From Kaistella flava (ex Peng et al. 2021) (lineage in GTDB: Bacteria > Bacteroidota > Bacteroidia > Flavobacteriales > Weeksellaceae): a DNA stretch of 64,000 nt. Positions 2,193 to 63,664 of the stretch are shown piece by piece. The number at the start of each line of letters is the position of its first letter. Within the stretch, counting starts at the first letter, position 1. Below the pieces are notes generated by a model. The model made no database searches. It was not told where the DNA came from and worked only from the letters and a program-made list of their open reading frames with translations. The position numbers and the translations under genes are program-made. The stretch spans positions 1,798,001 to 1,862,000 of the forward strand of contig NZ_CP040442.1 in NCBI RefSeq assembly GCF_015191005.1. The letters are read 5' to 3'.

Positions 2193-2337
2193 TAAAAATA
2201 CCGGAATATGATTATCAACTGAAGTTGATCTTGCAGAATTCTTGACGCTTCAACCTATCAAAAACATTGCCGAAAAAGACTCTTTTAATTTAAATTCTTC
2301 TGGTGAAAAAATAAAATTATTCCATTTGAACATGTAA
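2193..2337 (+). pseudogene. Decayed 5' fragment of fhs (leader plus first ~40 codons)
   Basis: The leader AAAAATACCGGAATATGA closely matches the leader of the intact fhs gene at 3433-3450. The codons that follow translate to TEVDLAEFLTLQPIKNIAEK, which aligns with TDLEIAESADIQLIKNIADK at residues 5-24 of Fhs. The distance from the ATG (2208) to the aligned codons is 10 nt here against 12 nt in fhs, so the start codon is out of frame and quickly meets a stop. The aligned frame ends at a TAA at 2335-2337. This is therefore a broken partial copy, lying just upstream of the SDR gene that separates it from intact fhs. The similarity was found by eye; beyond about codon 25 it becomes weak. Confidence 0.75.
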
Positions 2338-2464
2338 GTCCGCCTTTCCAGCATTTCTTAAAAGACGATCATTCATTACCTTTACTTAAATAAAAAACCA
2401 ACTATTTGCAATGAAAAAGCATCTATTATAGTTGGAGAAATAATCATTTAAAAGTTAAAAAGTT

Positions 2465-3211
2465 ATGGAAAATTTAAAAGGACAAGTCGTAATCGTAACA
2501 GGTGGAGCGTCGGGAATTGGCGGTGCTTTAACATCGGTTCTCGTAAAACGTGGCGCCTCGGTAGTTGCTGTAGACATCAACGAAGAAGCCGGACAAAATA
2601 AAGTAAAAGAAAGTCCGCAAAACATTGCATTCCTAAACGGTGACGTATCCAAAGAATCCGTGGCAGAAGAAGCAGTAAAGTTGGCGGTTTCAAAATTTGG
2701 AAAACTAACGGGATTAGTCAACAACGCACACGCTTCTCGCCAAAAACCTTTGATGGAATTGACGGCAGATGACTGGGCTTTATCTTTTGGAACTGGATTT
2801 AATGCAACCCTTCATTTTATGAAAGCCGCCTATGCTGAATTAAAAAAATCAAAAGGCTCGGTGGTCAATTTCGGATCCGGTGCCGCCCTGAATGGCCAGG
2901 CTACGCAGGCAAGTTACGCCGCTGCCAAAGAAGCGATTCGAGGTTTGAGCCGTGTTGCCGCGACGGAATGGGGAAAAGATAATATTCGGGTTAATGTCGT
3001 TTGCCCACTGGCTTTAACTGAAGGTGTTATTAAATGGCGAGAAAGCAGTCCGGAGCAGTATAAGCAAATTGCCGATCATATTCCGTTGAGTCATTTCGGA
3101 GACCCTGAAAACGATATCGCACCAATTGTGGCTTTTCTATTGAGCGACGACAGTCAGTATATGACAGGTCAGACCATTATGGCAGATGGCGGCGATATTA
3201 AATTAAGATAA
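2465..3211 (+). CDS. SDR family NAD(P)-dependent oxidoreductase
   Basis: A classical short-chain dehydrogenase/reductase of 248 residues, the usual length for the family. Visible motifs are the Rossmann TGGASGIGG at residues 12-20, an NNAH variant of the NNAG motif at 86-89, the catalytic serine near residue 138, and the YxxxK pair Tyr151/Lys155. The C-terminal GQTIMADGG is the typical SDR ending. The substrate cannot be deduced; the enzyme is cytosolic and probably acts on a small alcohol or ketone. It lies between a decayed fhs fragment and intact fhs, which suggests it was inserted there. There is no obvious operon partner, and the start is the only ATG close to the conserved N-terminus. 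Confidence 0.93.
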   Translation: MENLKGQVVIVTGGASGIGGALTSVLVKRGASVVAVDINEEAGQNKVKESPQNIAFLNGDVSKESVAEEAVKLAVSKFGKLTGLVNNAHASRQKPLMELTADDWALSFGTGFNATLHFMKAAYAELKKSKGSVVNFGSGAALNGQATQASYAAAKEAIRGLSRVAATEWGKDNIRVNVVCPLALTEGVIKWRESSPEQYKQIADHIPLSHFGDPENDIAPIVAFLLSDDSQYMTGQTIMADGGDIKLR

Positions 3212-3416
3212 ATAGTTTTTAAAGTTTTCCAAGGTCTAATGGACGGCGGAAATGCGAAAAAAGTATCCGAAAATCAGAAAATATTTAGTTGTTTCTGTCT
3301 GAATAAAATTTTGCTAAAGAATAGTTAATCGAAAGATTTTCTATTCTTTTTTGGTAAAAAACAGAACTACTGATATAAAGCATGAATAAAAAATTGATTT
3401 AAAATTTGATTTCCAC

Positions 3417-3424
3417 TAAATTTG
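3417..3424 (+). promoter_or_regulatory. -7 promoter box of fhs
   Basis: TAAATTTG matches TANNTTTG exactly and lies 22 bp upstream of the fhs ATG at 3447. The leader between them, with AAAAATACCAGAATATGA, is the part duplicated near 2193. Confidence 0.7.
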
Positions 3425-3446
3425 AGTGAATTAAAAATACCAGAAT

Positions 3447-5123
3447 ATGAGTTTCCCTACCGATCTAGAAATTGCAGAATCCGCCGACATTCAATTGATC
3501 AAAAATATTGCTGATAAAGTAGGCATTGATCATGATGACCTGGAATATTACGGAAAGTACAAAGCCAAAATACCTTTAAAATATATCGATGAAGAAAAGA
3601 TTAAAAAAGCAAAACTTATTTTAGTTACTGCCATTAATCCAACTCCGGCCGGTGAAGGAAAAACCACCGTTTCTGTTGGTTTGAATGACGGTTTATGTAA
3701 GATTGGTAAAAAATCAATTGCGGTTTTACGTGAACCTTCACTTGGGCCGGTTTTCGGTGTTAAAGGTGGCGCTGCCGGTGGCGGTTATGCGCAACTCATT
3801 CCTATGGTTGATATTAACCTCCATTTTACGGGAGATTTTTCAGCGATTGAAAAGGCGAACAACTTACTTTCTGCGTTGATTGATAATAATTTACAAAACA
3901 AAGTATACTCTTTAAATATTGATCCAAGAACCATCGTTTGGAAGCGCGTGATGGATATGAATGACCGTTCCTTGCGAAATATTGTCGTTGGATTAGGTGG
4001 CTCCAATAACGGAATTACGCGGGAAGAAGGTTTCAATATTACGCCGGCGAGTGAAGTGATGGCGATCTTATGTTTAAGCAATGACTTCGAAGATTTGAAA
4101 AATAGATTAGGAAATATTTTCGTGGGTTATACTTTTGACAAAAAACCAATTTTCGCGCGAGATTTAAAAGCAGAAAATGCGATGGCGATTTTATTAAAAG
4201 ATGCCATTAAACCAAATCTGGTTCAGACTTTAGAAGGAAATCCGGCGATTCTTCACGGTGGACCTTTTGCGAATATTGCGCAAGGAACCAATACGATTAT
4301 CGCTACAAAAACAGGACTTTCTCTCGCAGATTACGTTGTTACAGAAGCGGGATTCGGAGCCGATCTCGGTGCTGAAAAATTCCTGCATATCAAATGTCAT
4401 TACGGAAAAATGAAACCTGACGCTTACGTGATTGTCGCTACCATTCGTGCTTTGCGTTATCATGGTGGGGCGAAAAAAGGAGAATATGAACATCCTAATT
4501 TAGAATGTCTGAAAAATGGATTTGAAAATCTGGAAAAACATATTGAAAACGCACTGAAATTTGGAATGCAGCCAATTGTTGCCATTAATCATTTTGCAAC
4601 AGATTCTCAGGAAGAGATTGAATTTTTAATAAGTGCCTGTGCAAAACTAAATGTAAAAGCAATTGTGGCAGATGAGTTTACAAAAGGAGGTGACGGAATG
4701 ATCGACCTGGCCGAGGAAGTTGTTCGCTGTGCGGCTCATTGTGGCAACGACTTCAAACCATTATATAATGTTGAAGATTCTGTGGAACATAAAATTGAAA
4801 CCATTGCGAAAGAAGTTTACGGCGCAGAAAGTGTGGTTTATTCCCAGAAAGCAAAAAATCAACTGAAAACTATTTACGATTTAAATTTTGACAAACTGCC
4901 TATCTGCATGGCCAAAACTCAGAAATCTTTAAGCGACGACGAAACTAAAATCGGGCGACCTTCGAATTTCAAAATTACGGTTCGTGAATTTGAATTTGCT
5001 GCCGGTGCGGGATTCATCATTCCGGTTTTAGGTGACATGATGAGAATGCCGGGATTGCCTAATGTTCCCGCTGCGGAAGGAATGCACATCGATAAAAATG
5101 GAAAAATTACGGGATTAAGTTAA
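3447..5123 (+). CDS. fhs: Formate--tetrahydrofolate ligase
   Basis: The enzyme makes 10-formyltetrahydrofolate from formate, ATP and tetrahydrofolate, feeding one-carbon units to purine and formyl-Met-tRNA synthesis. The 558-residue length is typical. It shows the family P-loop TPAGEGKTT around residues 66-74, followed by REPSLGPVFGVKGGAAGGGY, the KPTxVQTLEGxPAxxHGGPF-like segment, and the conserved C-terminal AGAGFIIPVLGDMMRMPGLP. A -7 box 22 bp upstream supports the start. The gene is single, ends before a bidirectional terminator, and has a decayed copy of its own 5' end 1.2 kb upstream. The purine genes farther along the window are metabolically linked but not in the same transcription unit. 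Confidence 0.98.
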   Translation: MSFPTDLEIAESADIQLIKNIADKVGIDHDDLEYYGKYKAKIPLKYIDEEKIKKAKLILVTAINPTPAGEGKTTVSVGLNDGLCKIGKKSIAVLREPSLGPVFGVKGGAAGGGYAQLIPMVDINLHFTGDFSAIEKANNLLSALIDNNLQNKVYSLNIDPRTIVWKRVMDMNDRSLRNIVVGLGGSNNGITREEGFNITPASEVMAILCLSNDFEDLKNRLGNIFVGYTFDKKPIFARDLKAENAMAILLKDAIKPNLVQTLEGNPAILHGGPFANIAQGTNTIIATKTGLSLADYVVTEAGFGADLGAEKFLHIKCHYGKMKPDAYVIVATIRALRYHGGAKKGEYEHPNLECLKNGFENLEKHIENALKFGMQPIVAINHFATDSQEEIEFLISACAKLNVKAIVADEFTKGGDGMIDLAEEVVRCAAHCGNDFKPLYNVEDSVEHKIETIAKEVYGAESVVYSQKAKNQLKTIYDLNFDKLPICMAKTQKSLSDDETKIGRPSNFKITVREFEFAAGAGFIIPVLGDMMRMPGLPNVPAAEGMHIDKNGKITGLS

Positions 5124-5192
5124 AAACCAGAACTATCAAAAATTGACAGATTTCCCTTGAATGTAAAACTGATTTTGTTTCCAGCCTGAATT

Positions 5193-5280
5193 GCGCCCCG
5201 GATTGCAACGGAAATCCCGGAACAAGCGCAGGGAAAGCAAAGGCGTGAGGAATTGCAGTGGAAAGCCGGAAATGTGCGCC
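5193..5280. repeat. Dispersed palindromic intergenic repeat, family 1, copy a
   Basis: The element starts GCGCCCCGGATTGCAACGG and ends GTGGAAAGCCGGAAATGTGCGC, so its ends are imperfect inverted copies flanking AAATCCC and GAGGAATT halves. The same architecture recurs at 9918, 12903, 18070, 43142, 44587, 52608 and 56812. It lies between fhs and the tRNA terminator and codes for nothing visible. Confidence 0.7.
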
Positions 5281-5282
5281 AT

Positions 5283-5319
5283 AAAAAAAAGAGTTACAAA
5301 TTAATGCAACTCTTTTTTT
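5283..5319. terminator. Bidirectional intrinsic terminator between fhs and tRNA-Ala
   Basis: GAGTTACA and TGCAACTC form a stem, flanked by an A-tract on the left and a T-tract on the right. It can therefore end both the plus-strand fhs transcript and the minus-strand tRNA transcript. Confidence 0.8.
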
Positions 5320-5320
5320 G

Positions 5321-5394
5321 TGGAGGATATCGGGATCGAACCGACCACCTCTTGACTGCCAGTCAAACGCTCTAGCCAGATGAGCTAATCCCCC
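5321..5394 (-). tRNA. tRNA-Ala (anticodon GGC)
   Basis: The minus strand folds into a 74-nt cloverleaf without an encoded CCA. The acceptor stem GGGGGAT/ATCCTCC has one G-T pair and discriminator A. The D arm begins TTAGCTCA, the anticodon loop is CTGGCAG with anticodon GGC (reads GCC/GCU), and the T arm contains GGTTCGATCC. A bidirectional terminator follows it. Confidence 0.95.
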
Positions 5395-5477
5395 ATTTTG
5401 GGTGCTGAATTTTACGATGTAAATTTCAGATTTGCAATGATACAAATTTTTGTGATTTAAAAGCAAAATTTTGGGCT

Positions 5478-6269
5478 TTATTTTTTCTCGGCGACGAGAG
5501 AGTAAACGAGCGGTATTTTATTTCCAAACTGGGGAATTTGATATTTTCCTTTTTCGATTTCTTCCATATGGCGGAAACATGGATACGGCGACCAATTGTA
5601 TTCCTGAAAAGATTGCAGTTGCAGATTTTCATCTAACAGACTGGTCAGAACTTCGGACAGGGAATGATTCCAACTTACTTCTTCATTGGCCAAATCTGCA
5701 GTTCGGTCGGCATAAGTTCCATCGTTGGTTTCTATAATCTGTTGATCATTAAAATAACTGTATTGCACAAAAGTGAAATCATTATCGTACATCCAAACGA
5801 CCGGATGAAATTCCACGAAGATTAATTTGCCGCCGGGTTTTAGGAATTTTGAAATGACTTCGGCCCATTTCTGTAAGTCGGGAAGCCAACCAATTGTTCC
5901 GTAAGTCGTATAAACAATATCGAATTTGTCATGCAAAACATTAGGTAAATCGTAAACATCTGAAACAATGAATTCGGTATCTGTTCCGCATTTCTTGGCT
6001 AAATCTTTTGCTGCTTCAATGGATTTATCTGACAAATCGATTCCTGTAACTTTTGCTCCCAATCGAGAAAGTGAAATAGAATCCTGTCCGAAATGACATT
6101 GAAGATGCAAGATTTTTTTATCTTTAATATCTCCTAAAAGATCTAATTCAATTGAGTTTAAAGAAGTTCGGCCTTTTAAAAACTCGTCTACAAAATAGAA
6201 ATCAGACTTTAAATGCGAATCGACTTTTGCATTCCATAATTTGCGATTGATGTCGAGATAGTTTTCCAT
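5478..6269 (-). CDS. Class I SAM-dependent methyltransferase
   Basis: A 263-residue methyltransferase of unknown substrate. It has the class I Rossmann core: motif I reads LHLQCHFGQDSISLSRLGA, with the acidic post-I residue in TGIDLSDKSIEAA, followed by a FDIVYTTYGTIGWL motif IV. The ATG at 6269 is chosen because it forms a TAATG overlap with the stop of the upstream EamA gene, implying translational coupling. A longer reading from 6332 would bury 21 codons in that gene. Relatives are often annotated ubiquinone/menaquinone-type methyltransferases, but nothing here fixes a small-molecule substrate. Confidence 0.9.
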   Translation of the reverse strand: MENYLDINRKLWNAKVDSHLKSDFYFVDEFLKGRTSLNSIELDLLGDIKDKKILHLQCHFGQDSISLSRLGAKVTGIDLSDKSIEAAKDLAKKCGTDTEFIVSDVYDLPNVLHDKFDIVYTTYGTIGWLPDLQKWAEVISKFLKPGGKLIFVEFHPVVWMYDNDFTFVQYSYFNDQQIIETNDGTYADRTADLANEEVSWNHSLSEVLTSLLDENLQLQSFQEYNWSPYPCFRHMEEIEKGKYQIPQFGNKIPLVYSLVAEKK

Positions 6270-6685
6270 TATTTCCAAATTAAAAATAGAGTTCCAGCGA
6301 TTATTAATGATGCTCCAACTGCTGTTTTCCAAGTTAAAGTTTCTCCTAAAAAAATCACTGCAAAAATAATGGTCAAAGCCAAACTGAGTTTATCGATGCC
6401 GGCAACTTTTGAAACTTCGCCCATTTGTAATGCTTTAAAATAGAAGATCCAGGAAAATCCGGTTGCAAATCCTGAGATGGTAAGAAAAATCCAGTTTCTT
6501 GAAGATAATTCGCCGATTGCTTTATATTCATTTCGGAAGAAAACAATCATCCAAATCATGACTAAAACAACAACTGTTCGAATGGCAGTCGCCAAATTCG
6601 AGTTTACATTTTCTACGCCGACTTTAGCGAAAATCGCAGTTAGTGCAGCAAAGAAAGCCGATAATAAAGCGTAAATCCACCACAT
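6269..6685 (-). CDS. EamA-family membrane transporter, half-size
   Basis: A 138-residue integral membrane protein with about five hydrophobic helices and no soluble domain. It matches one EamA repeat of the drug/metabolite transporter superfamily, with the typical C-terminal GETLTWKTAVGASLIIAGTL segment. Full-size DMT transporters have two such repeats, so this protein would be expected to dimerise, as small multidrug resistance proteins do. Its stop overlaps the methyltransferase start by one base (TAATG), so both probably come from one mRNA. The substrate is unknown. Confidence 0.88.
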   Translation of the reverse strand: MWWIYALLSAFFAALTAIFAKVGVENVNSNLATAIRTVVVLVMIWMIVFFRNEYKAIGELSSRNWIFLTISGFATGFSWIFYFKALQMGEVSKVAGIDKLSLALTIIFAVIFLGETLTWKTAVGASLIIAGTLFLIWK

Positions 6686-6757
6686 TTTTTTGAGAGTTTA
6701 ATTCTTCTGAATACGTTCTAACTGTATAATATTGAGCGGCTTAAATTATCATTCAGC

Positions 6758-6790: not shown

Positions 6791-6799
6791 AATTGTTCA

Positions 6800-11104: not shown

Positions 11105-11620
11105 ATGAAAAATTTAATAATTTTATGCTGTTTAATGGTTGTAGGGGTTTATTTTTACTACCCTGTTTTTGACAGTAAAGGAATTTCATACATCATCGTG
11201 TTTTCTTCTTTTGTAATTGTTTGCTTCGCAGGAGCAAAACTTTATTCGTCAGATGAAAAAGGAGATTATGATTCACTTGAAAAGAAGATGGATAAATTAC
11301 ACGATTTCGATGGCATGTTTCAATATATGCACGACGGATTTTATATCAAGAAAGGAAAATCCATGGAATTGATAAAATGGTCAGAAATCATCACCGTTAA
11401 TTCACTTCGAATTCCAGTTCTAAATGATGAACAGACAGGTATTGAAATCATCACTGAAAATAAAAAGTACGAATTTATTGATCAGCAAACTCCTGGTATA
11501 GAAAAATTAATCGACAAGCTTTATGAGAATCTTCCTAGTTTGGAAGAACCAAATTCAGAAATTAATCATCTAAAATTTCAAAAAACCAGGTTATATGAAC
11601 TTGAAAAAAGTGTTAGTTAA
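11105..11620 (+). CDS. Hypothetical membrane-anchored protein with PH-like C-terminal half
   Basis: A 171-residue protein of no recognised family. Two hydrophobic helices (about residues 2-19 and 29-47) form an N-terminal membrane hairpin. The rest is a charged cytosolic domain with a strand pattern, DGFYIKKGKSMELIKWSEI then IEIITENKKYEFID, that resembles small bacterial PH-like domains; this fold guess is weak. It follows the ADP-ribosylglycohydrolase gene by 54 bp on the same strand and might share its transcript. Function unknown. Confidence 0.75.
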   Translation: MKNLIILCCLMVVGVYFYYPVFDSKGISYIIVFSSFVIVCFAGAKLYSSDEKGDYDSLEKKMDKLHDFDGMFQYMHDGFYIKKGKSMELIKWSEIITVNSLRIPVLNDEQTGIEIITENKKYEFIDQQTPGIEKLIDKLYENLPSLEEPNSEINHLKFQKTRLYELEKSVS

Positions 11621-18204: not shown

Positions 18205-19440
18205 TTAAAACTTGCCGATGTCGTCTCTGTAATATTCGTAATCATAGTGAATAAGATCTGCATCTTTATACACTTCTTTGCGCGCTTCTTCGAAAGTATC
18301 GCCAGTGGCAACCAAACTTAAAACACGTCCGCCAGTGGTTAAAATCTGATTTCCTTTGACTCTCGCGCCGGCAAAAAGAAGTTGACTGGTCACTTTTTCT
18401 GTATTTCTGATTTCAAAACCTGTCTCGATTTGACGTGGATAACCGCCGGAACACATTACCAAACACACCGCTTTTTTGTCGCTGAATTTCAGTTCGATAT
18501 CGTTTCCTTCTATGCAATCCATGATGACATCGTACAGATTATTTTCCAGCAAAGCCATAATTACCTGCGTTTCCGGGTCGCCTAATCTCATGTTATATTC
18601 CAGCAAATAGGTTCCGTTTGCCGTCACCATTAAACCGAAAAAGATAAAACCTTTGAACCGGATATTCGAAGCATGAAGTCCTACTAACGTCGGTTTTAAG
18701 ATATTTTCGTCAAAATCTTTTTGATGGGCTTCCGTAAATTCCGGACTTGGCGCAACGCTTCCCATTCCACCAGTATTCGGTCCTGTATCACCTGAGCCTG
18801 CTTTTTTATAATCCTTCACTGGAATACATGGGAACAATTTATCGCCATTTGAAAAGGCGATAATGGAGGCTTCAAAACCTTTTAAATATTCTTCGATGAC
18901 CAATTGAATTCCGGCATCACCAAATATTCTTTCGATCATAAATTGGTGAATAGTCATTTCAGCTTCGGCTAAATCTTCAGCAATCACAACGCCTTTTCCG
19001 CCCGCAAGTCCGCTGGCTTTAATTACTAGAGGAAACTCCTGCGTTCTTACGTAATCAATCGCGTCTTGATAGGCTTCAAATACTTTTGCTTTTGCAGTTT
19101 TGATATTATGAGTCTGCATGAATTTTTTGGAAAACGCTTTGCTTCCTTCTAATTCTGCCGTTCTTTTTCTTGGACCAAAAATCTTAAGATTATGTTTTTT
19201 AAATTCATCTACAATCCCACCCACTAAAGGTGCTTCCGGACCGACGATGGTTAAATCTATTCTTTCTTTGATGGCGAAGTCTCTTAACCCTTCGATGCTG
19301 TCTTCATATACATTCTGACCCAATGAATCTGTAGTTGCATTTCCTTTGGCGAAATATAATTTAGAAATCCTTTTATCGCTGTTGAGCTTTAAAGCGATCG
19401 CAGATTCTCTGGCGCCGTTTCCTACTATTAATATTTTCAT
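18205..19440 (-). CDS. purD: Phosphoribosylamine--glycine ligase (GAR synthetase)
   Basis: The second step of de novo purine synthesis joins glycine to phosphoribosylamine with ATP. The 411-residue protein has the N-terminal GNGARESAIALKL motif, an ATP-grasp domain with KASGLAGGKGVVIAE near residue 140, the PVKDYKKAGSGDTGPNTGGMGSVAP signature, and the metal-binding YNMRLGDPETQ near 280. It is last in the purM-purN-purH-purD order, followed by an intrinsic terminator. A TANNTTTG box in the gap after purH suggests an additional internal promoter. Confidence 0.98.
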   Translation of the reverse strand: MKILIVGNGARESAIALKLNSDKRISKLYFAKGNATTDSLGQNVYEDSIEGLRDFAIKERIDLTIVGPEAPLVGGIVDEFKKHNLKIFGPRKRTAELEGSKAFSKKFMQTHNIKTAKAKVFEAYQDAIDYVRTQEFPLVIKASGLAGGKGVVIAEDLAEAEMTIHQFMIERIFGDAGIQLVIEEYLKGFEASIIAFSNGDKLFPCIPVKDYKKAGSGDTGPNTGGMGSVAPSPEFTEAHQKDFDENILKPTLVGLHASNIRFKGFIFFGLMVTANGTYLLEYNMRLGDPETQVIMALLENNLYDVIMDCIEGNDIELKFSDKKAVCLVMCSGGYPRQIETGFEIRNTEKVTSQLLFAGARVKGNQILTTGGRVLSLVATGDTFEEARKEVYKDADLIHYDYEYYRDDIGKF

Positions 19441-22995: not shown

Positions 22996-22996
22996 T

Positions 22997-52817: not shown

Positions 52818-54254
52818 ATGAATCCGATTGTGTTGCTGTTGATTATCATTGCGTATTTTGGACTTTTACTTTGGGTCGCTTATCGAACCGGAAAAGGCAG
52901 TAACAACGAAAGTTTTTTTATCGGAAACCGAAAAAGCAACTGGATGCTCGTTGCGTTTGGAATGATTGGAACTTCGCTTTCGGGCGTGACTTTCGTGTCG
53001 GTTCCAGGTGCAGTTGGTGCTGATAAATTTCATTATCTACAGATTACGATTGGATATTTAATTGGATACATTGTCATCGCTTACGTTCTTCTACCACTCT
53101 ATTATCGACTGAAACTGACCTCGATTTACGGATATCTGCAACAGAGAATGGGGCAACTTTCTTATAAATCTGGTGCGTGGATTTTCATCGTTTCCCGTTT
53201 GGTTGGTGCAACGGCAAGATTGTATTTGGTGGTGAATATTTTGCAGATGACGATTCTTGATAGTTTAGGCGTTCCTTTTATCGTGACAACGCTGGTTATC
53301 TTAATCATGATTATTCTCTACACTTACGAAGGTGGCGTGAAAACGATTGTGTGGACAGATACTTTGCAGACGACGTGTATGCTTTTGGGACTGATTATTT
53401 GTTCGGTTTATATGATGAATCATTTGGGTTTAAACTTCACAGAAAGTATTTCTCAAATGAATAAACTGGGTTATACTGAGGTTTTCAATACGGATTCGAA
53501 CAGTAAAGCTTTCTTTTTTAAACAGATTTTAGCCGGAGCTTTTATCACGATTACGATGACTGGAATTGATCAGGAAATGATGCAGAAATCTTTGTCGGTA
53601 ACCAGACTGAAAGATTCGCAGAAAAACATGGTCGTTCTTGGAGTGATTTTAGTCGGTGTGATTTCACTGTTTCTATTTATGGGCGGACTTTTACATCTTT
53701 ATGGAAATACGGAACATGTTGCCACTTCAGGAGATCAATTGTTCCCGGATATTGCTTTGAATCACATGCCGCCGTTTATTTCGATCATCTTTATTGTGGC
53801 TTTGATTTCAGCGCTTTTTCCGAGTGCAGATGGTGCGATGACAGCCTTAACTTCTTCTTTATGTATTGATGTTTTCGGCTTGAGAGAAAAACCGATTTCA
53901 CAAAAAGAGCAGGAAAAATTTAGAAAAAGAGTTCACTTAATTGTAGCGTTTGCCTTTTTGGTGATGGTGATTATTTTCAAATTAATCAATGATAATTCGA
54001 TGATTGGTTTGATTCTGAAAATGGCTGGATTTACTTATGGACCATTGCTCGGATTATTTGCTTTCGGAATTTTCACCAAGTTCCAGGTGAAAGACAAATG
54101 GGTTCCTTACGTTTGTATCGCCGCTCCAATTATTTCGTTTTTAATCGATAAATACCAGGAGAACTTTTTCGGTGAGTTTAAAATCGGTTTGGAGTTGTTG
54201 ATTATTAATGGCTTGATTACGTTCTTTGGATTGTGGTTGATTCGGAAGAAATAA
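52818..54254 (+). CDS. Sodium:solute symporter (SSS family)
   Basis: A 478-residue membrane transporter with about 13 hydrophobic helices that couples solute uptake to the sodium gradient. The family core is recognisable: SLSGVTFVSVPGAVG in the unwound first helix, the WTDTLQTTCMLLGL segment, the GIDQEMMQKSLS site, and ALFPSADGAMTALTSSLCIDVF, which contributes sodium ligands. The solute cannot be read from sequence. The next gene, a GIY-YIG protein, starts only 6 bp downstream and is likely cotranscribed although unrelated in function. Confidence 0.94.
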   Translation: MNPIVLLLIIIAYFGLLLWVAYRTGKGSNNESFFIGNRKSNWMLVAFGMIGTSLSGVTFVSVPGAVGADKFHYLQITIGYLIGYIVIAYVLLPLYYRLKLTSIYGYLQQRMGQLSYKSGAWIFIVSRLVGATARLYLVVNILQMTILDSLGVPFIVTTLVILIMIILYTYEGGVKTIVWTDTLQTTCMLLGLIICSVYMMNHLGLNFTESISQMNKLGYTEVFNTDSNSKAFFFKQILAGAFITITMTGIDQEMMQKSLSVTRLKDSQKNMVVLGVILVGVISLFLFMGGLLHLYGNTEHVATSGDQLFPDIALNHMPPFISIIFIVALISALFPSADGAMTALTSSLCIDVFGLREKPISQKEQEKFRKRVHLIVAFAFLVMVIIFKLINDNSMIGLILKMAGFTYGPLLGLFAFGIFTKFQVKDKWVPYVCIAAPIISFLIDKYQENFFGEFKIGLELLIINGLITFFGLWLIRKK

Positions 54255-54259
54255 AAATT

Positions 54260-55099
54260 ATGGCTTTTGCAAAAACAATAAAAATATTTTTGATTGATGG
54301 CGATCCTAACGGAAGGATGTCTTGTGAATTATCGAATTGGACTGGGAAAGCGTATAAAATCCCCAGAATCAAAATCAAAGATTGTTCAGATCGATCTGAT
54401 TTGAACACTACAGGAGTTTATTTACTTTTTGGGAAAAATGAAGAAGGTAAAGATTTAGTTTACATAGGCGAAGCAGAAAATGTTCTCGTTCGTTTAAATC
54501 AACATTTATCATCAAAAGATTTTTGGAAAGAAACTATAGTTTTTATAAGTAAAGATGAAAATCTTAATAAGGCTCATATCAAATATCTGGAAAACCGATT
54601 GCATGACATTGCAACAAGAACAAATAGATATGCTATTGAAAATGGCTGTACTCCAACTTTATCCTCAATATCGGAATCTGACCGCGCCGAAATGGAAGAG
54701 TTTATTGAAAACATTAAATTAATGGTAAATACCCTTGGTCATAAAGTTTTTGAAGATAAAAGAGAACTTTCAACGTCAAGAAAAGATAAAGAATTATTGT
54801 ACATCAAATCTTCAAGAGGTTGTGATGCGATTGCAGAGCAAACATCAGAAGGATTTTTAGTATTAAAAGGTTCAAAAATAGCAGATTCTGTAACTCCATC
54901 AATCTCAAACTCTATCAAGGAATATAGACTTGAATTAATCAACAAAAATCTAATTATTGATTATGAATTTAAAGAAGATTATATTTTTTCAAGCCCATCT
55001 TATGCTGCGACAATAGTAATGGGAAGAAGTGCAAATGGTCTTACTGAATGGAAAACGATCGATGGTAGAATATTAAAAAGTTTAGAAAGTAATCAATAA
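54260..55099 (+). CDS. GIY-YIG nuclease family protein with DUF4357
   Basis: A 279-residue protein from the ATG at 54260. The N-terminal domain has the GIY-YIG pattern as TTGVYLLFG then DLVYIGEAENVLVRLNQH, about residues 52-82, including Arg and Asn residues of the catalytic core; the following VFISKDENLNKAHIKYLENRLHD resembles the family's glutamate motif. The C-terminal half (about 170-275) matches DUF4357, with SSPSYAATIVMGRSANGLTEWK. Such proteins are often linked to restriction or phage-related islands but also occur alone. It follows the symporter by 6 bp. An identical terminator to the one after hicB follows it. Confidence 0.88.
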   Translation: MAFAKTIKIFLIDGDPNGRMSCELSNWTGKAYKIPRIKIKDCSDRSDLNTTGVYLLFGKNEEGKDLVYIGEAENVLVRLNQHLSSKDFWKETIVFISKDENLNKAHIKYLENRLHDIATRTNRYAIENGCTPTLSSISESDRAEMEEFIENIKLMVNTLGHKVFEDKRELSTSRKDKELLYIKSSRGCDAIAEQTSEGFLVLKGSKIADSVTPSISNSIKEYRLELINKNLIIDYEFKEDYIFSSPSYAATIVMGRSANGLTEWKTIDGRILKSLESNQ

Positions 55100-55132
55100 A
55101 GACCTTTTCTAGATTCTAAATTAAAAACAATT

Positions 55133-55173
55133 AATCCGAGCTAAAAACTCGGATTTTTTCATTTTCCAAACAC
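55133..55173 (+). terminator. Terminator, copy 1 of the direct repeat flanking hicAB
   Basis: AATCCGAG and CTCGGATT pair around CTAAAAA, followed by TTTTTT. The first 32 bases are identical to the copy at 55859, and with CATTTTCCAAACA the similarity continues to about 41 bases with two mismatches. Confidence 0.88.
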
Positions 55174-55224
55174 AGCATTCTTTTAAATTTATATTCATAT
55201 AATATTATTTGTTAGTATTTTTAC

Positions 55225-55251: not shown

Positions 55252-55446
55252 ATGAAACGAATAAAAGTCGGAGAAATTATCAAAATGCTGGAGAAAGACA
55301 GTTGGTTTCTTCACAGACAAAAGGGCAGCCATCGACAATACAAACATCCTGATAAAAAAGGAACCGTAACCGTAAATGGCAAACCAAGTGAAGTTTTATC
55401 ACAAATGCTTTTGAATAGTATTTTCAAACAAGCTGGTTGGAAATAA
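55252..55446 (+). CDS. hicA: HicA-type toxin (mRNA interferase)
   Basis: A 64-residue double-stranded-RNA-binding-fold toxin that cleaves mRNA when its antitoxin is degraded. The signature catalytic His is in KGSHRQYKH (residues 25-33), after the helix IKMLEKDSWFLHRQ and before TVTVNGKPSEVL and the terminal QAGWK. The order toxin then antitoxin is the classic HicAB arrangement. A -7 box is 19 bp upstream, and hicB starts 15 bp after the stop. Confidence 0.93.
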   Translation: MKRIKVGEIIKMLEKDSWFLHRQKGSHRQYKHPDKKGTVTVNGKPSEVLSQMLLNSIFKQAGWK

Positions 55447-55461: not shown

Positions 55462-55854
55462 ATGGAAAAAATAAAAGTAATAATAGATTGGGATGAAAAC
55501 TTTGGCGCAGTATCAGATTTAGTTGAAGGTTGCGTTGCGACTGGAAAAACATTTGAGCAGGTAAAAGAAAATTACGCATCGGCTTTGACATTTCATCTTG
55601 AAGGTTTAGAAAACGAAGAAATCCCGAAAGAACTTTCAGGTAAATATGAACTGGAGTTTGAACTTACGGCGCAAGCATTATTACACCGTTTTGATAAGAT
55701 TCTTACCCGCGCTGCACTATCTAGAATCACAGGAATTAATGAAAGACAATTAGGGCATTATGTTTCAGGATATCGAAATCCAAAATCAGAACAAAGAAAA
55801 AAAATCGTAGAAGCTTTTCACCAATTAGGAGAAGAATTTCTCTCTGTATCCTAA
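55462..55854 (+). CDS. hicB: HicB-family antitoxin
   Basis: A 130-residue HicB antitoxin. The N-terminal partial RNase H-like fold reads IIDWDENFGAVSDLVEGCVATGKTFEQVKENYASAL, which covers the toxin's active site. The C-terminal part, ILTRAALSRITGINERQLGHYVSGYRNPKSEQ, is a helix-turn-helix that should bind the hicAB operator and autoregulate the operon. It ends just before a terminator that is a copy of the one before hicA. Confidence 0.92.
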   Translation: MEKIKVIIDWDENFGAVSDLVEGCVATGKTFEQVKENYASALTFHLEGLENEEIPKELSGKYELEFELTAQALLHRFDKILTRAALSRITGINERQLGHYVSGYRNPKSEQRKKIVEAFHQLGEEFLSVS

Positions 55855-55858
55855 AATA

Positions 55859-55899
55859 AATCCGAGCTAAAAACTCGGATTTTTTCATTTCCCAAACCC
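55859..55899 (+). terminator. Terminator, copy 2 of the direct repeat flanking hicAB
   Basis: The same AATCCGAG/CTCGGATT hairpin and T-tract as at 55133, followed by CATTTCCCAAACCCACC. It ends the hicAB transcript, and the transketolase promoter follows after 12 bp. Confidence 0.88.
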
Positions 55900-55911
55900 A
55901 CCAAAAATATG

Positions 55912-57917: not shown

Positions 57918-57968
57918 TTTTCAAAAGACGAAAAGATTATAGATCGCTTCGCTTTTAGAAAAAAGACT

Positions 57969-57998
57969 AATCCACTGATTATTTCAGTGGATTTTTTA
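57969..57998 (+). terminator. Intrinsic terminator of the transketolase genes
   Basis: AATCCACTG and CAGTGGATT pair around ATTATTT, followed by TTTT. The following 57999-58329 region is A/T-rich and shows nothing else I can support. Confidence 0.88.
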
Positions 57999-58595: not shown

Positions 58596-58705
58596 GCTAT
58601 TACAAATATAGAAATCTTTTTGCAATAGGTGATAATATTACACCATTAAAATTTTGCAATCTTTCCAAAAATGTAATGCCTCAACAGCGCATAAATTCTT
58701 TCCTT

Positions 58706-58812
58706 CGCTGCCGCACGAATCCTTCCGTGTGGTTTTTAGAAATACAAAAATATCTAAACTGTATCTAGAGATTCTAATTTTTCAAAAAAAAAATTACGTA
58801 AATTTGAATTAA
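58706..58812 (+). repeat. Direct repeat flanking the RelE/ParE module, copy 1
   Basis: CGCTGCCGCACGAATCCTTCCGTGTGG is followed after about 65 bp by GTAAATTTGAATTAAA, which contains the antitoxin -7 box. The same order, CGCTGCCGCACAAATCCTTT then CGTGTGG and GTAAATTTGAGTTAAA, occurs at 59397-59525 on the other side of the module. Confidence 0.6.
58799..58806 (+). promoter_or_regulatory. -7 promoter box of the RelE/ParE module
   Basis: TAAATTTG, an exact TANNTTTG match, 19 bp before the ATG at 58826. Confidence 0.65.
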
Positions 58813-58825
58813 ATATTTGGAAATA

Positions 58826-59068
58826 ATGAATTTAGAAGCACGAAAAATATCACTGGTTCAGGAGTTTTTGAGAATTGATAACGAAAAGTTGATCACTGCT
58901 TTAGAAAATTTACTTTACAAAACAAAAAACGAATTTTTTGAAGAGAATTTGAAACCAATGTCTTTGGAAGATTTTAATAAAGAAATTGACAAAGCCATCA
59001 ATGATGAAGAAAATAATCGACTCATTCGAGCAGAAGATCTAAAGGAAAAAATCCAGAAATGGAGTTAG
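58826..59068 (+). CDS. Putative antitoxin of a RelE/ParE-type module
   Basis: An 80-residue acidic, helical protein from the ATG at 58826; the upstream TTG lies between promoter and ATG and is not favoured. It begins with an N-terminal helix LEARKISLVQEFLRIDNEKLITALENLLYK and has a highly charged C-terminal half (MSLEDFNKEIDKAINDEENNRLI, then EDLKEKI), the shape of small ribbon- or helix-type antitoxins that wrap the toxin. It overlaps the toxin start by 10 bp, as antitoxin-toxin pairs commonly do. The family is not recognised beyond this. Confidence 0.82.
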   Translation: MNLEARKISLVQEFLRIDNEKLITALENLLYKTKNEFFEENLKPMSLEDFNKEIDKAINDEENNRLIRAEDLKEKIQKWS

Positions 59069-59379
59069 AAATCTTTTGGACTCAACTTGCAGAAGATAAA
59101 CTGCAAGATATTTTTGATTACTACAAAGGGAAAGCAGGAATTAAAACTTCAAGGAAAATAATCACCCAAATTGTTGACCGAACAATTGATTTAAATAAAA
59201 ACCCAAGAATTGGTCCCGAAGAAGAATTGTTGAAAGACCGCTTGCAGGAATTTAGACATTTGATATCAACAAATTACAAAATAATCTATTACATCAATTT
59301 TGAAACGAAGAGAATTGTAATTGCAAATGTTTTTGATGTAAGACAAAATCCTGAAAAAATACAGAAAACGAAATATTAA
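59059..59379 (+). CDS. RelE/ParE-family toxin
   Basis: A 106-residue toxin of the RelE/ParE superfamily, which either cleaves mRNA at the ribosome or poisons gyrase. It has the N-terminal strand LEIFWTQLAEDKLQDIFDYYKG, the helix TSRKIITQIVDRTIDLNKNP, the RIGPEEELLKDRLQEFRHLI segment, and the strands TNYKIIYYINFETKRIVIANVFDVRQNP with a conserved Arg near residue 95. Its start overlaps the antitoxin gene. The ParE versus RelE assignment is not certain without structural modelling. Confidence 0.9.
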   Translation: MELEIFWTQLAEDKLQDIFDYYKGKAGIKTSRKIITQIVDRTIDLNKNPRIGPEEELLKDRLQEFRHLISTNYKIIYYINFETKRIVIANVFDVRQNPEKIQKTKY

Positions 59380-59396
59380 AACCCTCTCGCTCCCTC

Positions 59397-59525
59397 GCTG
59401 CCGCACAAATCCTTTCGTGTGGCTTATTGAATAGAACGAAGGAAATTGCTCGAAACCCAAGAAAACTTTCGACTTGGTTATCTATTTATTTTTCTAAAAT
59501 AAAAAAGATGTAAATTTGAGTTAAA
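59397..59525 (+). repeat. Direct repeat flanking the RelE/ParE module, copy 2, with the BCCT promoter
   Basis: CGCTGCCGCACAAATCCTTT and CGTGTGG, then A/T-rich sequence, then the -7 box TAAATTTG (59511-59518) within GTAAATTTGAGTTAAA. It duplicates the layout at 58706 and should drive the BCCT transporter gene. Confidence 0.6.
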
Positions 59526-59592
59526 CAACCCGATGTCGCTGAATTGTATTCCGTGACGATGCTGCTACAATCTTGTTCCCTAAATAAGTACG

Positions 59593-61779
59593 ATGCCCAT
59601 GAACCAAAACTCCAACGAAGATAATCCGAATGATCACACCCATTCAGAAAAAACGCCGTTTGAACGCAGTCGTTTTGGTGGCAGCGTAAAGTCGCCTAAA
59701 GTTAAAAGTGAGGTTCCTGTATCAAAAAGTGATTTGGGAAAAGGCGCTCAAAAACTATGGCAGAATAAAACCACCCAAATTAACTGGAGTGTTTTAATAA
59801 TATCATCTGCGGTAATTGCGTCGTTTTCATTTTGGGTAATTGCGATGCCTGATCAAGCGAGAGCAACAATGAAATTAACCGTTAATTGGATCGCCACCAA
59901 TTTAGGCTGGTACTACGTTTTGACAATGGCGCTTGTCATTTTCTTTGTCGTTTGGGTGGCACTATCAAAAGCAGGAAATCTGCGTTTGGGACCTGATGAT
60001 TCGCGGCCACAATATGGACTTGCTACCTGGGCCGCAATGCTTTTTGCGGCAGGAGTCGGAATTGACCTTTTGTTTTTCTCGGTGACGGGACCCGTCGTTC
60101 AGTATTTGACGCCACCCTCGGGTGATGCAGAATCTGCCGCTGCTTTGCAGGATGCAGTCGTTTGGACCATGTTTCACTATGGTATAGCCGGTTGGGCGGT
60201 CTATGCACTACTCGGTATGGCAATGGGATATTTTGCTTATCGATGGAATTTGCCGCTTTCAATCCGAGCAGCGCTATATCCGCTTTTTGGCAAACGAGTA
60301 AAAGGTGCACTAGGTGACTCCATCAGCACTATTGCATTGATAGGAACTGTTTTTGGCGTCGCAACCACCATGGGAATTGGCGTGGTGCTGCTTAACGTTG
60401 GTTTCGCAAAACTGTTTGGCTTTAACGAAGGTCTAACGTTGCAAATTGCACTGGTTATTGGCGCTGTGATTTTAACGATTGCAGCAACAACATCAGGCGT
60501 AGATCGTGGGATCCGCTGGATTTCTGAATTGAATCTGTGGAGCGCCGTGGCCATGATGGCATTTATTCTAATAGCAGGTCATACAGCATTTTTGCTTAAC
60601 GGATTGGTAGAAAACATCGGTCAATTTTTGGTAACGCTGCCTTCAAGAATGTTTAAAACTTTTGCCTACGTTCCAGACAGCAGTGACTGGATGGGAAGTT
60701 GGACCCTTTTCTTTTGGGCCTTTTGGCTGGCATGGGGACCTTTTGTAGGCGTATTTTTGGCTCGGATTTCCCGCGGCCGAACTTTGCGCGAATTTGTAGT
60801 TGCGGCGATTACGGTACCGGTGCTTTGTGACTTTATTATCGTGTCCTTTTTTGGCAACTCCGCACTGTACGAAGTATTACAAGGGAACTCGGCATTTGCC
60901 GAACTGGCAATCGAAAGTCCTGAACATGGCTGGTATGCACTTTTAGGAATGTTCCCTGCACCCCTATTCTTGATTGCTCTTGCCACGTTTTCAGGATTGT
61001 TGTTTTATATTACCAGTGCCAACTCAGGTGCAATGGTAATGTCTAATTTTTCAGCATCGATTCCTGATCCAAGTGAGGATGGTCCTAAATGGTTACGAAT
61101 ATTTTGGGCTGTTCTAACGGCAGTGTTGACCATTTCTATGCTTCTGGCAGGCGGCGTTATTACAATGGAATATGCTACACTAATTTTTGCGCTTCCGGTA
61201 ACTGTTATTGCGTACCTGGTCATGTTTTCATTTTATAAAGCGTTACGGATAGAGCGTGCCGAACAGGAAGGAAAAGTGATTCGCGATCCAACAATTACTC
61301 CAAGTGGTGGTCATATTCCCGAGCGTTCCTGGAAGCAGCGACTTGGGCAAATGCTTACTTTTGCCTCAAAAAAAGAAGGAGTGCAGTATTTAGAGCGCGT
61401 GATTCGCCCTGCTCTTGATGACGTGGCGGCGGAATTTAGAGGTCAGGGTTATGATGCCGAGCGTCAGAATGCCGACCACGACGAAAGAATCTCAACCATT
61501 GATCCTACTCGTCCTTCGGGACCTTTACTCAGGGTGTCGACCGACAGTGTTCATGATTTTTATTATCAGGTGGCTATGGTGGCAACACCAGCACCGACCT
61601 TTAGCGGAAAAATGGCATCGGATACCGATGTTTATTATCGACTTGAAGTCACTACCCAAACCGGATCAGGTGGCTATGATTTAATGGGATTGAGCCGTCA
61701 GCAGGTGATTGATGATGTATTGGAACAATATGAAGCGTATATTACCTATATAAGCGCAGCACGAGAGGAAGACGAATGA
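59593..61779 (+). CDS. BCCT family choline/betaine/carnitine transporter
   Basis: A 728-residue secondary transporter for quaternary ammonium osmoprotectants such as choline, in the inner membrane. A 60-residue hydrophilic N-terminus precedes about 12 transmembrane helices (residues 70-555). Family motifs are GLATWAAMLFAAGVGIDLLFF, VVWTMFHYGIAGWAVYAL, SWTLFFWAFWLAWGPFVGVF, and ARISRGRTLREF. The last 160 residues form a hydrophilic domain like the osmosensing tail of BetT. The codons look less A/T-rich than its neighbours and the alanine/glycine content is high, which suggests transfer from a higher-GC donor. Start 59599 (second Met) is equally possible. Confidence 0.93.
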   Translation: MPMNQNSNEDNPNDHTHSEKTPFERSRFGGSVKSPKVKSEVPVSKSDLGKGAQKLWQNKTTQINWSVLIISSAVIASFSFWVIAMPDQARATMKLTVNWIATNLGWYYVLTMALVIFFVVWVALSKAGNLRLGPDDSRPQYGLATWAAMLFAAGVGIDLLFFSVTGPVVQYLTPPSGDAESAAALQDAVVWTMFHYGIAGWAVYALLGMAMGYFAYRWNLPLSIRAALYPLFGKRVKGALGDSISTIALIGTVFGVATTMGIGVVLLNVGFAKLFGFNEGLTLQIALVIGAVILTIAATTSGVDRGIRWISELNLWSAVAMMAFILIAGHTAFLLNGLVENIGQFLVTLPSRMFKTFAYVPDSSDWMGSWTLFFWAFWLAWGPFVGVFLARISRGRTLREFVVAAITVPVLCDFIIVSFFGNSALYEVLQGNSAFAELAIESPEHGWYALLGMFPAPLFLIALATFSGLLFYITSANSGAMVMSNFSASIPDPSEDGPKWLRIFWAVLTAVLTISMLLAGGVITMEYATLIFALPVTVIAYLVMFSFYKALRIERAEQEGKVIRDPTITPSGGHIPERSWKQRLGQMLTFASKKEGVQYLERVIRPALDDVAAEFRGQGYDAERQNADHDERISTIDPTRPSGPLLRVSTDSVHDFYYQVAMVATPAPTFSGKMASDTDVYYRLEVTTQTGSGGYDLMGLSRQQVIDDVLEQYEAYITYISAAREEDE

Positions 61780-61793
61780 AGCCGTTTCATCTT

Positions 61794-61985
61794 CTCAAGG
61801 TTTTAAACTTTGACAAGGTTTTAAAAATGTCCGCTTTATTTTTAGAAATCATCTTTTCATTAAAATTTTAAAATTTTATTACACCAAAGAAATATTTAGT
61901 TTTCAAAATTAATCCATCAGCAAAACCAGACATTTACGCCATCGGTGATTCTACCAAAACAATAGAAGAGTTTCTGGATTATTGA
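61794..61985 (+). pseudogene. Decayed copy of the DUF488 gene start and its upstream region
   Basis: 61905-61985 reads AKPDIYAIGDSTKTIEEFLD then stop, aligned with EKPTIYTIGHSTRTIGEFLE at residues 5-24 of the intact DUF488 protein (63122-63664). The conserved His of IGHST is changed to Asp here. Upstream, TTGACAAGGTT, TTTAAAATTT and CCAAAGAAAT also match the sequence before the intact gene, so leader and promoter were duplicated together. The copy ends at TGA after about 26 codons. MarC lies between the fragment and the intact gene. Confidence 0.75.
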
Positions 61986-62074
61986 ATTCCCTTGCTCCCG
62001 AACGATTCTATTTCGTGGTTTACAGAACACAAAATTTCTAAATTACACTTTCAATCTTTAATTTTTTATGATGA

Positions 62075-62098
62075 CCACACGAAAGGATTCGTGCGGCA
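62075..62098. repeat. Inverted copy of the GCCGCACGAATCC palindrome
   Basis: CCACACGAAAGGATTCGTGC followed by GGCA is the reverse complement of the element at 58706 and 59397 (GCCGCACGAATCCTTTCGTG). The rest of 61986-62236 shows no ORF I can support. Confidence 0.55.
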
Positions 62099-62236
62099 AC
62101 TAGTGAACAAATTAATAATTCCAATATTAAAGTGGTGGAATTTGACCACTTTAAAATAACTTACTAAAAAACTAAACGGTTAAATTTCATAATCTTAATC
62201 TTTTAATCTAAAGACAAGACTTCCATTTAAAAACTT

Positions 62237-62244
62237 TAATTTTG
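62237..62244 (+). promoter_or_regulatory. -7 promoter box of marC
   Basis: TAATTTTG, a TANNTTTG match, 23 bp before the ATG at 62268. Confidence 0.6.
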
Positions 62245-62267
62245 ATAGAGAAAAATAAACCGCTAAA

Positions 62268-62960
62268 ATGACATTTGAATTCAACTCCTTCATCCATTTA
62301 ATATTTATAGGATTTATTGCACTATTCCCGGTTATCAATCCTCTTGGAAGCGCCTTTATTGTAAGTCCCTATTTTTCTGGCTTAGATCGACAAGAACGAT
62401 TGAATGCAATCAAACGAATTTCATTATATGCTTTTTTAATCTGTTTGGTTACTTTGATTATTGGACATTGGATCTTAGAATTATTTGGAATAACGGTTCC
62501 AATTATTCAGTTAGCGGGTGGAATAATGATTTGCAAAACCGGCTGGGAATTCCTTTCACCACCGAAACAAGAAAATACAGAGGAAATCCAAACTGGCAAC
62601 AAAAATCTAAGTCATCAACTGGAAAACAAACTGTTTTTTCCAATTACTTTTCCAATTACTACCGGAGCTGGTACAATCGCGGTTCTCTTTACCTTAAGTG
62701 CGCATGGATCCAGTAAAACCATCTCCCAATACTTGATCAATACGAGTGCGATTATGATTGCGGTATTGGCATTGTGTATTTTAGTATTCATTTGTTATAT
62801 CAATGCCAATCGACTGATTAAGTATTTAGGCTCGCAAAGGGAGAAAATAATTAACAGCATTATGGCTTTTTTAATTTTTTGTGTTGGTTTACAAATCGCA
62901 GTTGAAGGCATTACCCAACTCGCTTTACAGATCATGAAAGTTTTACATCAAGCGAGTTAA
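62268..62960 (+). CDS. MarC family membrane protein
   Basis: A 230-residue MarC/NAAT-family integral membrane protein with about six hydrophobic helices. Signatures are PVINPLGSAFIV in the first loop, RISLYAFLICLVTLIIG, LAGGIMICKTGWEFL, and the FFPITFPITTGAGTIAVLFTLSAHG re-entrant-loop region. Some relatives transport amino acids; the MarC antibiotic-resistance link is disputed, so no substrate is claimed. It sits between a decayed fragment of the DUF488 5' end and the intact DUF488 gene, as if inserted. A palindrome related to the 6758 element follows. Confidence 0.92.
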   Translation: MTFEFNSFIHLIFIGFIALFPVINPLGSAFIVSPYFSGLDRQERLNAIKRISLYAFLICLVTLIIGHWILELFGITVPIIQLAGGIMICKTGWEFLSPPKQENTEEIQTGNKNLSHQLENKLFFPITFPITTGAGTIAVLFTLSAHGSSKTISQYLINTSAIMIAVLALCILVFICYINANRLIKYLGSQREKIINSIMAFLIFCVGLQIAVEGITQLALQIMKVLHQAS

Positions 62961-62998
62961 TTTGTAAATTTAATTTCTGAACTTTCGATTGTGTCATT

Positions 62999-63031
62999 AA
63001 CCTTGTCAAGTTTTGACACCTTGACAAGGTT
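62999..63031. repeat. 33-bp palindrome after marC
   Basis: AACCTTGTCAAG and CTTGACAAGGTT are perfect 12-bp arms around TTTTGACAC. It belongs to the same set as the 33-bp palindrome at 6758 and the copy inside the DUF488 fragment. It may act as a terminator for marC, with limited T residues. Confidence 0.65.
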
Positions 63032-63121
63032 CTTAAAAAGAATGGTTCTCCAGTTAAATAGTTAATCTTTCCATTTAAAATTTCTAATTTTACTAAGCCA
63101 AAGAAATTTCAATTTTATAAA

Positions 63122-63664
63122 ATGAAAGCAGCGGAAAAACCAACCATTTACACCATCGGTCATTCTACCAGAACGATCGGGGAATTTCTGGAAATGTTGA
63201 ATTCATTTAATATTAAAATTTTAGCAGACATTCGAAGACTTCCGGGTTCGAGGAAATACCCGCAATTTAATCAGGACGATTTAAAGAAATCTTTAGAAGA
63301 AAACGGAATCGAATATGTTTATATTGAAGATTTGGGCGGAAGAAGACCAGCGAAAAAAGATTCAAAAAATACAAGTTGGAGAAATAAATCTTTTCAAGGT
63401 TACGCCGATTACATGGAAACCGAATCCTTTGAAAATGGTGCAGCAGAGTTGGCGAAGTTAGCCTTAGAACATCCGACGGCGATGATGTGTTCAGAAGCAG
63501 TTTGGTGGCGTTGTCATCGCTCCATGGTTTCGGATTATTTTAAAGCAAAAGGCTGGGAAGTTTTACATATTATGGCTTTAGGCAAAGTTCACGAACATCC
63601 TTATACTTCTCCGGCGAGAATTGTGGGAGATCAGGTTTTTTATTCTGATGAAAATTCTGGTTAA
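63122..63664 (+). CDS. DUF488 domain-containing protein
   Basis: A 180-residue protein of the DUF488 family, function unknown. It shows the family N-terminus IYTIGHSTRTIGEFLEML and LADIRRLPGSRKYPQF, the GGRR segment, the MCSEAVWWRCHRSMVSDYF motif with its conserved Cys and His, and the basic C-terminus. The Cys-Arg-His arrangement hints at a catalytic or metal role, but no activity is established. It follows marC by 161 bp. A decayed copy of its first ~25 codons lies 1.2 kb upstream. Confidence 0.93.
   Translation: MKAAEKPTIYTIGHSTRTIGEFLEMLNSFNIKILADIRRLPGSRKYPQFNQDDLKKSLEENGIEYVYIEDLGGRRPAKKDSKNTSWRNKSFQGYADYMETESFENGAAELAKLALEHPTAMMCSEAVWWRCHRSMVSDYFKAKGWEVLHIMALGKVHEHPYTSPARIVGDQVFYSDENSG

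Follow-up and report, generated by a model that had tools for sequence, protein, structure and literature searches.

Flank duplications around small genes in a Kaistella chromosome: probable scars of recombinase-free gene exchange at chromosomal hotspots

How do small genes come to lie between two imperfect copies of a neighbouring gene start or terminator? The question is raised by a 64-kb stretch of the Kaistella flava chromosome (positions 1798001-1862000 of a 3.72-Mb single-contig genome, labelled G000), referred to below as the window, within which all coordinates are given. A sequence-only reading of this DNA had placed an SDR oxidoreductase gene, hicAB, a RelE/ParE pair and marC each between direct repeats and had suggested that they arrived by a single shared and undescribed route. 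The four genes and the four flanking pairs are all present near the places claimed for them, as seen by Pfam and by self-comparison of the whole window, from which the identities, column counts and E-values of the pairs are taken. The two top-scoring matches of this self-comparison are the DUF488/marC pair (61791-61989 and 63002-63204, 203 columns, 72%, E 4e-24) and the hic pair (55129-55177 and 55855-55903, 49 columns, 92%, E 1e-12). The SDR/fhs pair (2185-2278 and 3424-3519, 97 columns, 72%, E 1.6e-4) and the RelE/ParE pair (58701-58741 and 59391-59431, 41 columns, 85%, E 1e-5) score lower, the latter being accompanied by a second segment (58777-58813 and 59488-59525, 38 columns, 84%, E 0.007). 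The copies of the pairs are 72-92% alike today. At the SDR, hic and DUF488 sites the insert lies between two direct target copies of at least tens of base pairs, and these three pairs are genuine local duplications or remnants. The four pairs are of different nature, namely decayed 5' remnants with the promoter included at fhs and DUF488, a terminator at hic and a dispersed palindrome at RelE/ParE. We propose, with a probability of roughly two in three, that they are the scars of repeated recombinase-free gene exchange at chromosomal hotspots in a strongly recombining genus, and not a new mobile element.

The best-resolved site is SDR/fhs, for which the uvrA-fhs region was taken from 16 relatives. 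These carry G numbers; G006 is Kaistella gelatinilytica G5-32 and G033 is Kaistella sp. SH40-3, both of the same genus. The site comprises the following features:

2185-2278, plus strand: decayed 5' end of fhs, comprising some 25 codons and part of the promoter, continuous with the flank on the uvrA side and 72% identical over 97 columns to 3424-3519
2465-3211, plus strand: SDR oxidoreductase of 248 aa, the inserted gene (Pfam PF13561/PF00106)
3318-3352, plus strand: terminator-like hairpin between SDR and the fhs promoter, read from the sequence by eye and common to G006 and G024
3424-3519, plus strand: intact fhs promoter and start (self-comparison, alignment with relatives)
3447-5123, plus strand: fhs, 558 aa, named as in the sequence-only reading (open reading frame (ORF); tblastn across relatives)

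A tRNA-Ala (GGC) is found on the other strand just downstream of fhs, at 5320-5394.

The 16 relatives divide into six with a single fhs and no SDR, two with SDR and remnant, one with a broken SDR and remnant, two with fhs remnants only, and five (G007, G009, G031, G018 and G015) with no fhs in the stretch taken. Base-by-base alignment of G030, G002, G013 and G010 shows a single complete promoter and fhs after uvrA, and no SDR; G022 and G029 also have a single fhs. The empty site with a single copy that had been predicted for this cassette is therefore found, and the remnant accompanies SDR. The order uvrA, fhs remnant, SDR, terminator-like hairpin, complete promoter and fhs is shared by G000, G033 and G006, with the remnant best preserved in G006 (80% over 130 columns). 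In G024 the remnant is followed by a broken SDR (46-55% in two pieces), an extra 440-aa ORF and then the same hairpin and fhs. G000, G033 and G006 have what looks like one and the same junction after the stub, so that the founding insertion probably occurred once and was then handed on. G017 and G027 were considered as empty SDR sites and rejected, because both hold fhs remnants: they keep only the two ends of the gene, whose middle is lost so that the 5' end runs straight into the last codons. This reduction is an independent gene loss at the same place. The end pieces in G027/G017 lie at L145 about 2290-2550 and L144 about 2390-2600, reverse complement.

The handing on of the cassette can be followed in the identity profile of G006 against G000, which amounts to 82% in uvrA, 94% in SDR, 92-100% in the fhs promoter and first codons (50-bp steps) and about 81% in the remaining fhs. 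At 4-fold sites, SDR is 83% identical (98/118), compared to 48% in uvrA (101/209) and 46% in fhs from about +130 (86/188), a contrast of SDR with uvrA and the rest of fhs for which Fisher's test gives p ~1e-10. The SDR value is as high as that between G000 and its near relative G033 (96/117). Base by base, the fhs of G006 differs from that of G000 at 2 positions in the first ~112 bp and at many beyond. From +125 onwards, in 60-bp steps, G024 is closest or tied in 17 of 26, and G006 and G024 group together in the fhs tree with 100% support. On the left side, the flank of G006 is nearest to G024 and next to G010, its uvrA is 91-97% identical to that of G024 (100-column steps), and its remnant obtains its top score against the G010 promoter and start (136/163). 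Hence, in G006, the left flank and the fhs stub are native, the following tract of SDR, promoter and the first ~110 bp of fhs is imported, and the remainder of fhs is native. This profile indicates that the SDR cassette travelled on ordinary chromosomal DNA with its right crossover within fhs, at about +108 to +130, in a later transfer and not in the founding event. The left crossover, bounded by the native remnant and SDR, is likely to fall within the stub itself. Recombination between a donor locus and the homologous downstream flank of the host, which the sequence-only reading had offered as an example, is thus what the G006 profile displays at SDR/fhs. At the level of single bases, a metabolic gene is seen to have entered a core locus and then to have passed from one species of the genus to another with no mobile element involved.

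On this basis, we propose the following course of events. Chromosomal DNA from a donor, with a small gene immediately upstream of a conserved one, would pair with the conserved gene in the recipient, and the right crossover would occur within it, as in the fhs of G006. In the founding event the left end would join without long homology inside the recipient's own copy of the gene start; alternatively, a recircularised fragment would integrate via one crossover. The recipient's promoter and first codons would then be stranded upstream and decay, leaving the donor-borne promoter and start to drive the gene, and the established structure would spread to other lineages via ordinary homologous recombination, as it did for SDR. 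The hic terminators and ParE palindromes are situated in the same kind of variable interval and need not share the same step. A dead 5' stub marks such events, and stubs could serve to count recombinase-free gains in other genomes.

Several other readings have to be considered beside this course. The flank duplication may itself make the cassette portable, the partial and full start copies acting as its own homology arms; entry into any recipient would then take two crossovers, both confined to the promoter and initial ~130 bp of a single target gene, again without recombinase. The crossovers of G006, on the right within fhs and on the left between native remnant and SDR, are compatible with such an event, which we hold to be a minor possibility. 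Loss and regain is unlikely: the native fhs (or DUF488) would have been deleted to a 5' stub, beside which the full gene and its upstream neighbour would later have been reacquired. Stubs with the 5' end fused to the last codons do exist in G017 and G027, and for 5 of the 16 relatives the DNA taken contains no fhs. However, the stub of G017 and G027 retains a 3' piece and extends farther into the gene, and in G006 import is confined to SDR, the promoter and ~110 bp of fhs, most of the gene being native, so that no loss is needed there.

A further explanation makes the cassettes ancestral and the repeats, produced by conversion or by similar terminators, the sites of their precise loss. Its support comes from the hicAB site:

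55129-55177, plus strand: terminator copy 1, upstream of hicA (self-comparison)
55252-55446, plus strand: HicA-family protein, 64 aa (Pfam PF07927)
55462-55854, plus strand: HicB-like protein, 130 aa (PF15919, E 6.5e-4, 20.3 bits, below the cut-off of 27)
55855-55903, plus strand: terminator copy 2, between hicB and transketolase (self-comparison)

The terminator core has 2 mismatch-free sites in the 3.72-Mb genome, both flanking hicAB, and 5 further sites with 3 mismatches (1 in the backward control). In G027 hicAB lies between two terminators, and G017 has a single terminator and lacks hic, the flanks on either side being ~94% identical; the left half of the G017 terminator matches copy 1 of G027 and its right half copy 2. 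This arrangement would fit an insertion with a 29 bp overlap, and it is also what a deletion between the terminators would leave. The divergence of hic runs roughly with that of tktA (identities to G000 of 86.5 and 86.2% in G027, 84.6 and 90.5% in G030, 74.4 and 80.8% in G026), which again speaks for ancestral cassettes. So does the different stem of the second terminator in G030 and G026, from which this terminator may be hic's own and not a copy. Against deletion stand the visible import of the SDR tract in G006 and the SDR-free single-copy sites, which retain the full intergenic DNA that the decayed G000 copy lacks. As a general account, deletion is quite improbable.

In G030, hicAB lies ~6.6 kb from transketolase with other genes in between. 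That genome also has two copies (L125 about 11274-11352 and 18877-18958) of the terminator region found after the second transketolase gene (window 57919-57997); they are 7.5 kb apart around a block including BCCT, which is another flank duplication. In G017/G027, staggered matches ~77 bp apart (L137 from ~6358, L127 from ~4917, reverse complement) suggest that the transketolase pair is followed by a long array of repeats.

The RelE/ParE site is of another kind. Its features, with those of the adjacent BCCT gene, are:

58707-58732, plus strand: dispersed palindrome, copy 1 (genome search)
58826-59068, plus strand: small ORF upstream of ParE, presumed antitoxin from its position (no Pfam match)
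59059-59379, plus strand: ParE-family protein, 106 aa (Pfam PF05016)
59397-59422, plus strand: dispersed palindrome, copy 2 (genome search)
59593-61779, plus strand: BCCT transporter (Pfam PF02028)
62075-62100, minus strand: dispersed palindrome, copy 3, where the G000/G033 alignment ends

A genome search allowing up to 3 mismatches finds 13 copies of the 26-bp palindromic core, against 0 in the backward control; three copies lie within the window, at 58707-62100. The flank of RelE/ParE is therefore a dispersed repeat, and its interpretation as a copy of the BCCT promoter was rejected; the second, weak segment of the pair may be a promoter. The block common to G000 and G033 (58706-62098) starts and stops at palindromes. 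In G011, the block 58706-59385 has one palindrome at its left end and stands directly after the transketolase downstream region instead of ~700 bp on. These positions suggest that the palindromes may be recombination end points. They also speak for insertion of small cassettes by a recombinase (integron-like, insertion sequence-derived or transposon-like), with the repeats as attachment sites or target duplications, a reading that is very unlikely given that recombinase, integrase and transposase families were found in 0 of 38 proteins scanned (window, G033, G030, G013, G007, G024 and G006) and that the repeats vary by site in type (gene start, terminator, palindrome) and in length, from 41 to 203 columns. 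The same scan is compatible, within its scope, with the statement of the sequence-only reading that no integrase or transposase is seen: these and other transketolase regions hold 202 ORFs of at least 60 aa, and most of the relatives' ORFs lie outside the 38 proteins. One common element at all four sites was rejected, since the sites share no repeat and the scanned proteins no recombinase family; nor was a common recombination site found at all inserts, two of which lie at gene starts and the others at a terminator and a palindrome.

The fourth site associates marC with a DUF488 gene:

61791-61989, plus strand: decayed DUF488 promoter and start (self-comparison; also in G033)
62268-62960, plus strand: MarC-family membrane protein (Pfam PF01914)
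63002-63204, plus strand: intact DUF488 promoter and start (self-comparison)
63122-63664, plus strand: DUF488 protein (Pfam PF04343)

Here the claimed coupling of cassette and duplicate breaks down in both directions. G024 carries marC and DUF488 together and lacks the second DUF488 start in the 14 kb taken, a cassette without duplicate being the very case that the sequence-only reading had named as speaking against itself. In G033 the decayed DUF488 start is followed by a Na/H-exchanger and Usp gene, and marC is absent. The G000 DUF488 start gives both remnants, of G000 and of G033, a better score than the G033 start does, so that marC and DUF488 may have arrived together and have been swapped later in G033. 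Comparison of the DUF488 remnant with 11 DUF488 starts gave no clear source. A different DUF488 fragment precedes the DUF488 gene of G013 by 1.2 kb. The marC site warns that a cassette is not necessarily the source of the decayed copy next to it.

The intervals as a whole appear to have the character of hotspots. Between the same anchors the cargo varies and includes BCCT, Na/H-exchanger with Usp, MarC, CIA30, BRO-N, sulfatase and SDR. A search with PADLOC on 7 proteins of G033 and G030 gave 0 matches, and defence-island cargo was rejected for these proteins. The flanking core genes are incongruent, as judged by nucleotide identity only: besides G033, the nearest relative of G000 is G017 for uvrA, G006 for tktA, G011 for tktB and G030 for fhs. 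The tree of uvrA, tktA and tktB is weakly supported, as expected if the genes conflict. The comEC and dprA families, which could point to uptake of DNA, are present in the genome. Riemerella is close to Kaistella. In published abstracts, Riemerella anatipestifer and R. columbina are described as naturally competent, and Flavobacterium johnsoniae is not.

Other results weigh against recombinase-free exchange as the common account. The founding left junction at SDR was not caught, and neither microhomology nor donor sequence was seen there; the G000 and G033 fhs remnants are too decayed to be assigned to a source lineage. The marC cassette and its duplicate are uncoupled in G024 and G033, and the hic-free site of G017 may equally be a deletion between two terminators. 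The 288-aa ORF directly upstream of hicAB (54233-55099) matches DUF4357 and a GIY-YIG nuclease domain just under the cut-off (Pfam), and the G030 and G024 intervals contain BRO-N proteins, which are phage-linked, so that some neighbours may have ties to mobile elements. Natural competence of the species would rest on comEC and dprA, which are weak evidence since they also occur in most control genomes. The last point is the frequency of such pairs. It was assessed on the 64-kb window, on a 400 kb sample of G000 (20 stretches) and on 320 kb of E. coli K-12. In a start-region test, each gene that encodes at least 100 aa and has 3.2 kb of upstream DNA was searched for matches of at least 40 bits in non-coding DNA 0.3-3 kb upstream; on the window the test covered the first 60 kb, which places DUF488 outside. 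Such matches were obtained for 2/40 genes in the window, 4/229 in the G000 sample and 3/215 in E. coli, with 0.00, 0.08 and 0.19 expected from unrelated pairs, respectively. The G000 sample thus shows no excess over E. coli K-12, and a genome-wide surplus of start-region duplicates found no support. A Fisher test of 3/43 against 4/229 (p = 0.08) was given no weight because the first fraction was set by hand, the DUF488 case and three genes having been added to 2/40. We also counted all pairs of at least 40 bits with at least one non-coding copy, classed as near (0.2-3 kb apart) or far (beyond). Near and far pairs numbered 27 and 9 in the G000 sample and 5 and 4 in the E. coli sample; the window gave 5 near pairs. 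Two 20-kb stretches account for 14 and 5 of the 27 near pairs in the G000 sample, and many of the 27 are repeats present in 4-14 copies. Such pairs exceed chance, and the larger count in G000 is mostly due to a few repeat clusters. The G000 sample also contains a 3-kb segment duplicated at 99.8% (L253 9815-12844 and 16971-20000, 4.1 kb between copies) and a direct repeat of 369 columns at 96% (L257 2169-2532 and 3947-4315) surrounding small ORFs; the latter is perhaps a younger case of the same kind.

What remains of the single, undescribed route is its component of recombination in the downstream flank, seen at SDR. A route common to all sites finds no support, given the ParE palindromes, the uncoupled marC and the possible deletion at hic, and precedents are in print. 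For insertion of restriction-modification (RM) systems with long target duplication, Nobusato et al. 2000 is the source cited by PMC3031569, and PMC3077401 also lists it among its references. In the passages available, RM systems are described as able to insert with long, variable target duplications (PMC3031569), and the likeness is close, since genes without recombinase lie between long variable direct target copies and the event is deduced from related genomes. In contrast to the RM case, the cargo here is SDR, hicAB or marC, one copy is decayed, and transfer between lineages is visible as an import tract. A related single-copy genome without the insert was found for SDR only (G030, G002, G013 and G010); none was found for marC, and for hic there is G017, where deletion is as likely.

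The proposed founding step also has parallels. In laboratory conjugation in E. coli, 14 sequenced clones carried partial target duplications of 109-950 bp, attributed to a single crossover of a recircularised, shortened molecule, and 4 of 60 clones looked like true homology-facilitated illegitimate recombination (HFIR) (PMC3240628). There, as proposed here, one end is anchored by homology and the other joined illegitimately; our case differs in being a comparison of natural sequences in which the founding junction was not observed. For V. cholerae, the corresponding passages report successive displacement of type VI secretion system (T6SS) effector genes with old immunity genes kept, and propose HFIR (PMC5361080). 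Both systems combine a conserved anchor on one side with a piece of the old gene on the other, followed by spread through homologous recombination. In V. cholerae, however, the anchor is upstream and the remnant a kept 3' immunity gene; in Kaistella the anchor lies downstream and what is left behind is a dead 5' end. Hotspots without recognisable mobile elements and with frequent recombination at flanking core genes are likewise described (PMC5635113, in part); they resemble the present intervals in having variable content between fixed core genes, no recombinase found (here among the 38 proteins scanned) and mosaic flanks, and differ in that the passages on them do not mention the flank duplication scars seen here. 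In outline the route is thus known already, and the SDR/fhs finding fits among these published precedents as a new and well-resolved example.

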